From NCBI GenBank assembly GCA_903813345.2, contig CAIIXF020000012.1:12384932-12448931 (forward strand): a DNA stretch of 64,000 nt, given 5' to 3'. A model generated the notes under the pieces. That model ran no database searches and was not told where the DNA came from. It worked only from the letters and a program-made list of their open reading frames with translations. This document shows positions 11,501 to 60,100 of the stretch, in pieces. A program made the translations under genes and the position numbers. Source of the stretch: Owenia fusiformis. Lineage: Eukaryota > Annelida > Polychaeta > Sabellida > Oweniidae. The first letter of the stretch is position 1. Each line of letters opens with the position of its first letter.

Positions 11501-14500
11501 TGGGGGCGGGGCTACTAAACTGTAATATGGTCTCTACAAGTTAGTTAAACCAGTGTATTCCTTCAGTCATAATAACTATGTAATACCTTGATGGATCAAG
11601 ATGGTGCCAATGTCTGAATGAAAGGTTTATCCTGCTGTTAATACAAAAAATGATATCATTGACAGTATTACAACAACAATATTTATATACGCATATTGGA
11701 ACTAATATTACATGCTGTAGGCTATAACAGTATTATCTTAATCAGTAGTATAATAGATATCAGTGTATTTAGGACATGTGTACAGTACATATTTAAATAT
11801 AATATCTGTATGTTGGGGTTATCATGTATATTTGAGATATCACCAGGGAGTTGTAAACTATCAGTTTAATACCTCTAATATTATTGATTGTTTAGACAAC
11901 TAAGGACAGTAAATGAACTATATTTTACCATAATAACTACTTTTTGTACTTCCACAAGGGATCTGTTAGGTTCCTATTTACTTGCATTTGCAAAGAAATC
12001 ATTCATATGATACTGTTAAACCCTGCTAGTTCTTGTTGTCTGCTTTATTATGTGGGATTCATGACTTCTTAGCATTAAAGCATATCACCTAGGATGACCC
12101 CTTGTGTTTCTGCATCTCGAGAAATCATGGCATTCTGTTATTTCTTGCTAGAAAGCCATGAGTTAGTTCAAGTATAATTTTGATATAGCAATATACCAGT
12201 TTTACTGCAAATGTTATAGACCAATATTAAATTGATGAGATGAACTGACCGTGAGCATTGTTGGAAGGCATAGCCTGAAGTGGGGCTCCACCTATCAAAT
12301 CGCTTTAAAAGCTGTGAATATCTATATGGAGATCATTCATCTCACTCTAATTAGGGTAATAAAACATATATGATAACCACCACAATTAAACTGTTGAAGA
12401 ACCCCTTCCATTTAATGATATCAGGTCACAAATTGTAACCAACTTATCAGAGCATATTTCTAGTTGAAAAAAACTGAAAATGTGATGAGTATCAGAATGG
12501 TGTTTCTGGGATTTTGTGAAAGTTTATCTTGATGTTAAGAAAGTTCAAAAATAGAAGATGGATAAATATGATAGAAGAAGCTGACTTTTACAATGCTTCA
12601 TTTCTAGTTGAAAAATTCATATTTTTGAAACTTGGTAAATACCCTAACATGCCAAATGCGTCTATACTAGGCCTTAGCCTTATACACACCAGCAGATGTG
12701 TTATGTCAATAACAGTGTACAGTACTTCATACAGTAAACCTACCCTGTGCAAAGTCTAGTTATTATCACCCTCTGCCTAGTATAGACTATATTACAGATC
12801 ATTATTACTGTTTAGTAGCTCTGCCCCCACGACCATGCATGATTGCATGTGACATCCTGAGTCATAAATCATTTCAAAACTATCACGCTGATCATTTCTC
12901 AACCAATCAGTGAGCTGGACGGAACACATGCTAAATGTGTGCTTATTAAATATGCAGTGACGTAACAGGAAATTACCATATAGAAAGTCGTCCATATTTT
13001 GACACCGAACTCTGAATGGCTTGTCGAGTTCAGAGTTTTATTGTAAACTGAAAGAGTGAAGATGAAACTCTCATCTTAGATGCAAAGTCGAATGAATGCA
13101 AAGGATACAGTACACCCAATTAACAAAGGAAATTGTTGTCAACAGCTTTAGTTTGTCACATTGAAAGTTGTACAAGAATAGACCTGACATTATGTACATG
13201 TTATTTTTGGCTCACTAATATGGGATCGACCAGGCGTCCGTCCTTCCGTCCGTCCATTTGTCCTTTAATCATTTAACAGTTGATTTCATAATGACCAATT
13301 GTGTATGTTCTCTTAATGAAATGTTTCATTTTGTAACAATATTTTTTGGTCCTTCCCTTGTGCTCATGTTAGAGAAATCAATCTATCAATTTAGAATGAT
13401 CCATGGTATGCTCATGAAATGAAATATGTCAAGCTGTACAGTCCCGACTGTAAACCAGAGAAACCATTAACAATTTATCAAGATAGTATCTGATCTGTCT
13501 TGTACATATCTCTTGACCTAAACTAAGCATCAGATAAAGATTGGTCACTTATTAAAAAACCTGGCTGAGAATCTAATCTACTTATTAGGTCAAGCTCGTA
13601 TCCCAGCTCTTTTCTAAGACCATGTCATGTAAAATATAGTAAGTTTGAATGTTGTTATTGTTTGTGTGTTTTAGCCTACAGTATTGATGTGTAAATCCAA
13701 GAGGGATGACACCGATGTAAGGATTACAATTACATTGAGGAATGAACTACCTCCCACATCACCAACATGCATCCAGATGTACAATGTCATATTCAGGAGG
13801 TAAGACCACAACTTGTTGAAAACTACAGGATTATCAGAAATGTTGAATTTAATGGTTAAGAACATGTAATCCCAATGACCCAATCAATCAATAGATCTGA
13901 GTGACCCTCGTTTCTGAAAATAATATTAATGTCATATTCAGGAGGTAACACCACAAAGTTAATGAAAACAATGGGATCATCAGAAATGTTGAATTTAATG
14001 GACAAGTACCTGTAATCCCAATGACCCAATCAATCAATAGATCTGAGTGACCCTGGTTTCTGAAAAAGATGTCAATGTCATCTTCAGTAGGCAAGACCAC
14101 AAAGTTAATGAAAACAATAGGATCATTAGAAAGGATCTATTTTGATTTAAAAAAGCTATAGCAGCCATTGTTTGTCATCCTTGGCCCAGGGGTGTTTCAC
14201 TTCTTTCCATATTGAGGAATAAATTGAGCCTTTTGATGAAGGATGACTACTTGTTGACATTATAGTAATAGAACACAAAGGAATTCATTATTACCAAATG
14301 ATACACCTACTATTAACAAGCACCTTCAGGTCTGCTTTTCAAATAACTTATTTGTTCATAATGTAATACAGAGATTAGCACTTGTTAATGTCATGGGATA
14401 ATTCACATCAAAGCCTTTATGTTAGGCAAATGTTATATAACTAATGAGCTACTTGATTCACATAAGTGGGATGTTTCATGTATTCATACCAAGATTTATG

Positions 14501-57100: not shown

Positions 57101-60100
57101 TGCCCTGCTCTCTACTGGACAGAATGCACATTCTACAATCAACGAAACAAATAGATAATAGGGTGGATACATGTGCCGTGCTCTCTACTGGACAGAATGC
57201 ACATTCTACAATCAATGAAACAAATAGATAATAGTGTGAATACAGGTGCCCTGCTCTCTACTGGACAGAATGCACATTCTACAATCAACGAAACAAATAG
57301 ATAATAGGGTGGATACATGTGCCCTGCTCTCTACTGGACAGAATGCACATTCTACAATCAATGAAACAAATAGATAATAGGGTGGATACATGTGCCTTGC
57401 TCCCTACTGGACAGAATGCACATTCTACAATCAATGAAACAAATAGATAATAGGGTGAATACAGGTGCCCTGCTCTCTACTGGACAGAATGCACATTCTA
57501 CAATCAATGAAACAAATAGATAATAGGGTGGATACAGGTGCCCTGCTCTCTACTGGACAGAATGCACATTCTACAATCAATGAAACAAATAGATAATAGG
57601 GTGGATACATGCGCCCTGCTCTCTACTGGACAGAATGCACATTCTACAATCAATGAAACAAATGGATAATAGGGTGGATACAGGTGCCCTGCTCTCTACT
57701 GGACAGAATGCACATTCTACAATCAATGAAACAAATAGATAATAGGGTGGATACAGGTGCCCTGCTCTCTACTGGACAGAATGCATATTCTACAATCAAT
57801 GAAACAAATAGATAATAGGGTGGATACAGGTGCCCTGCTCTCTACTGGACAGAATGCACATTCTACAATCAACGCAAACAAGATTTATATGGTGAACATA
57901 CAGATGCAAACTGATACAGCTGGAGACTATAACGACTCACTACTTCTGGAGGTGGTTATAAAAATGCACTCTAAAACATAATATTAAATATAATGTACAG
58001 GGTGGTCAAAAAAACTGGAAACCCTAACACCATTTTCCTAATATCTTTGTCATTTTAGGAAATAACTTTGCACATTTGTACATCACTCAATTTCCTATTT
58101 GCATACACTATTTCATGACCCTCAGATTGATAGTCACAGTGTTACAGCACTTTAAAGAACATTCCTGGTGGCCACTATTGCGCTATAGCCCAACCTCCAC
58201 ATGTCGTCCAAAATGTCCCTACCTATGGGAATATGGCAGAAATAGAGTTTATAAGAATGACCTCAGAACAATTGCAGACCTCAAAAGTGAGATCATCTGT
58301 ATCATTCAGGCCATACCTGCTGAGAAATGCATTTGTATCATTGACAACTGTGCAGATTTGCCTACAGCGCAATAATGCCAAACCTGAAGCATGTTGTTCA
58401 AAGTGCTGTAAAGGTGTGACTATCAGTCTGATGGTCATGAAATATGATAGGGTAGTAGGAAATTGAATGATTTACAAATGTGTGAAATATCAGGGAGTAA
58501 TTTCTTACAATGACAAAGATATGAGGAAAATGCAGGGTTTCCGTTTTTTTTGACCACCCTGTATATAAATTGTTACAAAAATGTCTGTAAAATCTACACT
58601 AAAAAGTCCATTTTGAATTCAAAAGCAATTTAAAATATAAACAACATCAGGCGAAAGGTATTTGAGTTTTTGCCCAAACTGACTGACAGATGGAGCCGTA
58701 CTTTATATCCCTCAACCTTTGTTTGATGGGAAAACAATGAAAGCTGACCTGGTATTGTGACTGTATGATGTTTTATTCAGCTCCCTCACTATCTGAGTAA
58801 TCTGCTTGTGTGTCCTTGTACCAAAATAGATCTTCGGGACCCTGGAGAATCAATTTATGAGTTAGCACAGGGAGCACACGTGTCTCTCATATCTCTCTTA
58901 GGCTACAATACACATGTAAAAGTACAGGTTAAATCATAATTCTCCTACCCTGGTATAGGCAAAGTTAGGAAGATTCCCACCTAATTCAATATTACTTACA
59001 AAGTAACTCTTTAAGGTGAATGAAAAGAATCATTTTTGCTATGCATTGTTGAATAGCTTTCAGTTTGAAGGGATACTACTGTGGAAAGATGAATCGAGGA
59101 GGATAGCATGTTACGTCAAATTACATACAATGAAACCTGTAAAGTGGAACACTTCTAGAAGTGGAACAACGAAACAGCAACTGGCTTTTAAATGTTAAAT
59201 GGACCTCTATAAGTGGAAAATTTTCCAAGTGGAACGCTTTTTAGAGGTACCAAATGTGTTCCATTTACACAAGTTTCACTGTATTTAAATACACAGTAGA
59301 GTGTATATTAAAATTCAGGTCAGGTTAAATTCATTCAAAATACCTGACCTTATCCTTTTGGTCTGTTGTCTACAAGCACAATCACAATTGATGAATCCAC
59401 CCTGTGCACCCTCAGATTCAGCTTCAGTTGAACTCTTCCCAAGTTTAAAGTATTCAGTGCTGGGAGAGTCCATCTTGTTGAAAGGGGTGGTAGGACTATC
59501 TTCATAACCAATTTTGGTATGAGACCTTCCCTGAAATGTATTGGACACGCTGATACAATGACACGTTGCAGAAAATGTCAAAATCCTTTTTTCACAATTA
59601 CATTAAAACAAGGCATTAACATGACAAAATGCCACCCTAGTGCTCACAATATTATGGGTTCAAATTGAAATAGGACCTTTTTTGACCTCGAGAAGGTCAT
59701 TGCATATAACACGTCACTAATAGAGGGCCAATTCAAAATAGAAATTATTTTTGAAGAAAACATTGATATGTATGTATTTACAGTCACTCTGGATATACTT
59801 ACAGTTGTAGGAGTTCTAAACCTTTGAGGAGCTTTGAAGTCATCAAAATCCAAATCTACCGAAGGTTCTTTCCTAGTGTTACTAAATTCTTGATTTGTGT
59901 CACAAGTATCATCGTTTGTGTTACATGTTTCATTGTTGAAGTATGGTGATTTTTCCGTAGCAGATTCAATGGGTGCAGCTTCCTCATGGCAGTGGCAGTT
60001 GCAATTATCAGCTACAAAATCACAAGAAATTTTCATCTTTACAAAAAATATCACATTGGACAAAAAATTAACAAAGTAAGTTTTCAGAGACTGTGCATAT

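Follow-up and report, generated by a model that had tools for sequence, protein, structure and literature searches.

Tandem copies of exon-intron junctions in Piwi, FANCJ and other genes of the annelid Owenia fusiformis

Minisatellite-like arrays built from copies of an exon-intron boundary have been described in amphioxus under the name 'mirages', in Adh3, troponin C, the globin genes BflGb6 and BflGb9, and PGBD5 (PMC3087553, PMC3902484). According to the accounts of these genes (PMC3087553, PMC3902484), boundary copies occur at both 5' and 3' boundaries, and many of them keep AG or GT; the genuine boundary lies beside the exon, and units measure 10–72 bp in Adh3 and 150–160 bp in the globins. 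RNA, polymorphism and somatic instability are reported for some of the amphioxus cases. Here, we examine a 64,000-nucleotide stretch of the Owenia fusiformis genome (assembly GCA_903813345.2, contig CAIIXF020000012.1, positions 12,384,932 to 12,448,931; hereafter the window, numbered from its first base), in which a Piwi gene and a FANCJ/BRIP1 gene carry arrays of this kind, together with 57 further stretches of its genome. What they add to the mirages is their occurrence in another phylum, a measure of how frequent they are, and an excess at junctions that is so far unexplained.

The arrays share with mirages a unit that spans the boundary (eight of the nine window cases), the involvement of donors as well as acceptors, variable unit lengths (39–260 bp) with unrelated sequences, and the retention of AG or GT (206 of 211 copies), bearing out a likeness that a first-pass annotation of the window had raised. 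They differ in that the host is an annelid and not a cephalochordate, that up to 53 spare copies are present, and that frequency and placement excess were measured; they are known here from the sequence of a single assembly. In keeping with an annelid host, the genome has three matches to the Pfam family Eryth_link_C, an annelid erythrocruorin linker domain, on contig C6, each above the family's cut-off, and its 38 forkhead-domain matches are spread over nine of the 12 large contigs, where Owenia fusiformis is reported to have 35 Fox genes on nine of 12 chromosomes (PMC9539403). The muscle myosin exon comes closest to scallop entries, followed by vertebrate and then fly ones; COX1 was not found. 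In the matches listed from the open-licence literature, we recognised no account of similar arrays beyond the cephalochordates. An account of earthworm metallothionein, likewise from an annelid, mentions exon-4 duplications that the final transcript is said to lack, together with first-intron minisatellites in related genes (PMC12783039); compared by description, that case concerns a duplicated exon and is not described as a junction array.

Below, we demonstrate the anatomy of the arrays, their recurrence in many genes, their excess over random placement, and the random position of the repeat unit relative to the junction. Our preferred reading, to which we assign a probability of roughly 0.7, is that tandem duplications straddling an exon-intron boundary are tolerated as silent passengers, and that young arrays are in addition more frequent at junctions than random placement would give.

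Nine junction arrays in Piwi and FANCJ

Exons of both genes were rebuilt from the reading frame and GT/AG signals, and all modelled introns are GT/AG-ended. The Piwi gene (5444–29377, + strand) has 17 modelled exons and its joined translation matches the Pfam Piwi and PAZ domains; the FANCJ/BRIP1 gene (37875–61914, − strand) has 20, and its joined translation matches DEAD_2 and Helicase_C_2. The FANCJ model is incomplete at its 3' end, past 37875, and between 51237 and 50222, where one exon is missing, and the basis of the window analysis is accordingly 35 introns with 70 junctions. We compared the ±40 nt around each junction with the adjoining intron at a score of at least 34, and found junction-spanning copies at eight of the 70 junctions; a control with reversed introns gave one positive (1/70, score 39). 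Two acceptors produced weak matches that do not span the junction, one at 39673 (score 37, exon part only) and one in Piwi at 29261 (score 36, intron part only). The former is the remnant of a duplication and makes up the ninth case. The nine cases listed in the first-pass annotation were thereby confirmed in number, kind and place (eight spanning, one remnant at 39673), as was its statement that both site types are affected, with three donors and six acceptors when the remnant is counted as an acceptor. Its total of 40 introns gave way to the 35 modelled here, and our numbering of the FANCJ exons differs from the earlier one.

Piwi carries two donor arrays on the + strand, at exon 4 (13783–14132; junction between 13799 and 13800), with a unit of ~146 bp that includes ~17 bp of exon and is present in two spare copies, and at exon 5 (14942–15157; junction between 14976 and 14977), where two to three spare copies of a 54-bp unit are decaying. 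Its exon 12 acceptor (exon start 23524) is preceded by seven spare copies of a 61-bp unit (23056–23544), and its exon 13 acceptor (exon start 26072; 25933–26088) by a single spare copy 113 bp upstream, comprising 43 bp at 88% identity.

The FANCJ arrays all lie on the − strand. At the acceptor of the exon starting at 52086 (52022–56013), 53 spare copies of a 74-bp unit with 65 bp of exon occupy almost all of a 4.1-kb intron, and at the exon starting at 56329 (56278–57881) there are 21 spare copies of a 73-bp unit with 52 bp of exon. A third acceptor array lies at exon start 48601 (48531–49250; unit 96 bp, six to seven spare copies), and a donor array with a 39-bp unit and 11 spare copies lies at exon end 41898 (41446–41919). 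The remnant at exon start 39673 (39594–39806) repeats exon bases from +19 onward 151 bp upstream: a 41-bp copy of bases +19 to +59 is evident (score 62, against a shuffled maximum of 34), and the junction part is unrecognisable.

In all eight spanning cases the genuine site, as judged from homology and reading frames, appears to be the copy that adjoins the open coding exon, in agreement with the first-pass annotation. Each window array reaches one end of its intron only, and none of the nine extends from donor to acceptor. This separates them from the gain of introns through tandem duplication of segments that carry AG/GT (a process that PMC3087553 cites after Rogers), with which they share a duplicated segment that holds splice signals and exon pieces that land inside an intron, but in which the array would be expected to touch both ends of its own intron. 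We infer that the introns are older than their arrays.

Recurrence in other genes and excess over random placement

The 57 further stretches were selected for the protein families that they encode, without regard to repeats. A first survey covered 27 loci with TCP1, tRNA synthetase or myosin exons at a junction score of at least 40, and 13 of 246 junctions were positive, compared with none in the reversed control. From these 13 we discounted two Mhc exon copies (locus L011) and one spurious row (L008), and added L014, in which a 260-bp array extends 122 bp into an exon whose acceptor could not be modelled. A second survey of 30 kinesin stretches, scored more strictly than the window, gave nine positives among 173 junctions (reversed control, one), and in eight of these the match extends into the exon by 6 nt or more; the kinesin case L029 reaches 2 nt by the junction test and 17 nt by BLAST. 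On contig C2, one kinesin array repeats a 159-bp unit in 17 spare copies. Exon matches used numbered 125 of 179 in the first survey and 89 of 144 in the kinesin survey, and the remainder lie outside the stretches examined, apart from five kinesin rows with an internal insertion and 17 in which the match is to spare copies within the C2 array. Aldehyde dehydrogenase, with 16 scattered matches in the genome, does not form part of the sample. After review, 33 junction arrays stand, nine of them in the window. Several percent of the exon edges tested are thus tandemly copied into the adjoining intron, and the recurrent process proposed from the two window genes extends to many other genes.

This recurrence also bears on whether the arrays could be assembly artefacts, produced by haplotype mixing or by mis-assembly of repeats. 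Assembly is difficult where an array is long and its units are identical, and the present arrays come from one assembly; the haplotypes of amphioxus differed in copy number, and in the draft one of the globin arrays had been assembled aberrantly (PMC3087553). On the other hand, units of 39–260 bp with graded divergence, in 2 to 54 copies and at many loci, are in our judgement unlike haplotype mixing, and amphioxus arrays were found in two haplotypes, and for PGBD5 both a re-examination of reads and new reads confirmed the array (PMC3087553, PMC3902484). Of the explanations considered here, an artefact receives the least credence.

We then evaluated the alternative that junction arrays reflect chance and tolerance alone, with duplications falling uniformly over introns and junctions, equally harmless in both, and with no local bias. 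For this purpose, a unit of each array's length was dropped at random on the introns and both their junctions, and the frequency of junction-straddling was taken as the expectation. Arrays were classed by segment; an earlier union-based list (24 'junction' rows) was dropped because dispersed pairs flanking an exon had been miscounted, and the Mhc exon copies of L011 were excluded. The first count placed 20 of 56 arrays at junctions versus 9.3 expected (P = 0.0003), made up of 9 of 19 in the window (3.7 expected) and 11 of 37 in the first survey (5.8 expected). Adding the kinesin sample gave, before correction, 25 of 71 versus 12.4 (P = 0.0002).

When 14 young arrays scored as intronic were read singly, five proved to be junction arrays of unmodelled exons and one the continuation of an array already counted. 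Pfam supports these exons well at L010 (2e-5) and in the joined L014 pair (9e-6), fairly at L020 (0.003), and weakly at L038 (0.03). This re-reading covered intronic arrays of at least 85% identity, with those of low identity left as scored, and the corrected count adds 92 estimated unmodelled exons to the target. Across all arrays, it places 30 of 70 at junctions versus 18.7 expected (P = 0.002), consistent with the earlier contention that junctions carry more arrays than chance placement gives; the surveys alone, unfiltered, give 21 of 50 versus 14.0 (P = 0.02). For arrays that are young and locally derived, defined by 85% identity or more and by the lack of relatives in the other stretches examined, the figures are 19 of 26 versus 6.7 in the surveys (odds about 8-fold), 8 of 9 versus 1.6 in the window, and 27 of 35 versus 8.4 in both combined; none of 500,000 simulations was as high as the survey count, nor as high as the combined one. 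The kinesin sample by itself gives 6 of 9 versus 1.7 at 85% identity or more (P = 0.002), and 6 of 15 versus 3.0 unfiltered (P = 0.057).

Some of these results agree with chance and tolerance alone: the unfiltered survey excess is mild, units are placed uniformly with respect to the junction, and arrays within introns are evenly spread. The excess among all arrays and, above all, among young, locally derived ones, together with that in the kinesin sample, speaks against it, and we regard this explanation as unlikely. With 19 of 26 young survey arrays at junctions where 6.7 are expected, tolerance by itself is insufficient. The idea of the first-pass annotation that tolerant splicing makes junctions a safe place for expansion fails as the sole cause, since it predicts fewer junction arrays than are observed.

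The preferred reading, which combines tolerance with an excess of young arrays, has several points against it. The unfiltered excess is modest, with a rate ratio of 1.9 in the surveys, 3.2 in the window, and 2.1 overall. The 85% cut was first applied after part of the data had been seen, although it held in the later kinesin sample; of that confirming sample, one array, the one on contig C2, had been visible beforehand in the domain search that chose the stretches. Below 85% identity, 3 junction arrays stand against 20 non-family intron arrays, with no junction excess. That the exon-side copy is used and the decoys are ignored is an assumption drawn from reading frames and homology. The low-identity arrays also bear on the cause of the excess: were exon-bearing copies to decay more slowly, the excess would fall among them, and none is seen there. 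Base composition may contribute, given a GC content slightly above that of intron windows in young intron arrays (P = 0.04) and above that of junction windows in junction arrays (P = 0.009).

Unit anatomy and spare splice sites

Among 28 junction arrays of the window and surveys (11 donors, 17 acceptors; L053 included and L029 left out in the tests that follow), units measure 39–260 bp. The exonic share of the unit ranges from 0.12 to 0.99 and is uniformly distributed (Kolmogorov–Smirnov P = 0.42), and unit length shows no frame preference, with modulo-3 classes of 8, 9 and 11 and multiples of three in 8 of 28 arrays. None of the 28 has a relative in another stretch examined, compared with 12 of 46 intron arrays, in keeping with the earlier observation that the units are unrelated in sequence, variable in length, and not one repeat family. 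Arrays scored as intronic are evenly spread along introns (Kolmogorov–Smirnov P = 0.68), with no crowding toward exons.

A use of the copies as coding sequence was considered and rejected, there being no bias to multiples of three (8/28), though the 39-bp donor array of FANCJ keeps an open reading frame. This frame continues through all copies (41436–42047, − strand, 204 aa), and use of an inner donor would insert 13-residue repeats into the protein.

Introner elements are dispersed families that create new introns. The present arrays resemble them in that a repeated sequence is tied to splice sites, and differ in having no dispersed related copies (0 of 28, window and 57 stretches). Units without shared sequence among the stretches examined argue against an introner-like insertion, and their edges, which lie at random distances from the junction, argue against breakage there by the spliceosome or a paused polymerase, since a cut at the junction would give the unit a fixed edge. 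The excess of young arrays at junctions would fit a splice-site-directed mechanism of either type, yet arrays scored as intronic do not crowd the exons. The random unit position, the lengths modulo 3 and the evolution of the decoys, in which change at GT/AG, with shared changes counted once, is not significantly different from that elsewhere, together argue against a directed or selected process. The mechanism aimed at splice sites that the first-pass annotation had suggested is thus not borne out, and we consider it very unlikely.

We next asked how the spare sites themselves have evolved. GT or AG is kept in 206 of the 211 spare copies that cover the site (26 arrays), and by a naive count 5 of 422 splice-dinucleotide bases are changed, fewer than elsewhere (P = 5e-5). 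Compared with random dinucleotides of the same arrays, the raw mismatches number 5 versus 20.7, a borderline difference (P = 0.054). Spare copies share changes, however, and when shared changes are counted once per column there are 5 events versus 8.1 ± 2.7 expected (P = 0.18), or versus 6.6 expected from other AG/GT dinucleotides (P = 0.33). Protection of the spare GT/AG is accordingly not claimed, the deficit being borderline as raw mismatches and not significant as events. Divergence is alike in the exon part (4.9%) and the intron part (5.3%) of spare copies. These figures bear on the proposal that the spare sites are useful, as redundant acceptors or donors that improve or regulate splicing and are maintained by selection: the high retention, the naive deficit and the borderline deficit in raw mismatches speak for it, the event counts, the similar divergence of the two parts and the absence of a frame preference speak against it, and we judge it highly improbable. 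Neither protection nor disabling of decoys is shown, and the spare copies resemble silent passengers.

In the 74-bp FANCJ array at 52086, six spare acceptors equal the true acceptor over 80 bases, such that local sequence cannot separate the true site from its copies. Of the core-motif counts, only that for this array is used, since those for donors include chance hits to a 9-base word and some others (L026, L013) exceed the copy number found. Exon definition is the natural candidate for what selects the true site.

Origin and implications

In the scenario that we favor, each array would begin as the tandem duplication of a 39–260-bp segment that happens to take in an exon-intron boundary. The gene product would be unchanged, as one boundary copy stays at the exon while the spares and their exon fragments sit within the intron. 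The exon-side copy would most likely be chosen through exon definition, in which the recognised unit is a short one bounded by the nearest acceptor and the nearest donor, and the spares would leave with the intron. Duplications within exons would presumably be purged and those deep in introns would be neutral, so that the pattern is probably in part one of survivorship. The excess may arise because exonic DNA is a favoured site for one of the two breakpoints, or because it serves as an anchor for unequal exchange that keeps exon-side arrays expanding. Compared with ordinary intronic minisatellites, the arrays are similar in unit size and copy number, and are set apart by exon sequence in the unit and by the fact that the junction kind makes up 27 of 35 young, locally derived arrays among the sampled genes.

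A stronger version makes the exon edges of this genome genuine hot spots for tandem duplication, at which an exon-containing segment duplicates, or stays expanded, more often than an intronic one. The rate ratio at exon edges is about 2 for all arrays and about 5 to 10 for young, locally derived ones. Exonic DNA might draw the breakpoint, or conserved exons might anchor unequal exchange between strongly diverged homologues, which variable introns would not. We hold this version tentatively, at somewhat less than even odds. If it were true, the same process could operate in amphioxus and in other minisatellite-rich animals, supplying introns with pieces of exon and with splice sites ready for use.

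Whatever the cause of the excess, near-perfect decoys raise two questions, namely how cells choose the right site and why copies recur at junctions. Studies of splice-site choice usually set a single true site against weak decoys; an exon edge accompanied by as many as 53 spare acceptors allows direct tests of exon definition and of first-come co-transcriptional splicing. The arrays place exon fragments with intact signals in introns, and thereby provide raw material for new introns and exons. Their occurrence in an annelid and in amphioxus suggests a wider process in invertebrate genomes, and gene annotation and repeat masking may mishandle them.

Other repeats were seen alongside the junction arrays. 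In the window, two intronic arrays (45745–47030 and 40686–41004) have a ~136-bp unit and a similar consensus; the former has a relative elsewhere in the genome and was counted as a family member. A Piwi intron contains a short dispersed repeat (~14170–14267), for which 39 of 41 among the matches listed lie elsewhere in the genome, and more tandem arrays at 2830–3550, 20161–20681 and 32051–32409 lie away from modelled junctions. The myosin locus L010 on contig C7 carries a donor array (5613–6734) with a 125-bp unit, the exon part of which is most of the exon; the unit holds TTGTAG, a possible acceptor, with which a spare copy could be read as a mini-exon. On contig C9 (37986009–37994334), next to a muscle myosin gene, twelve successive myosin-head matches fall on one stretch of the profile (~18–30 to 80–84), and this series suggests a large cluster of mutually exclusive exons.

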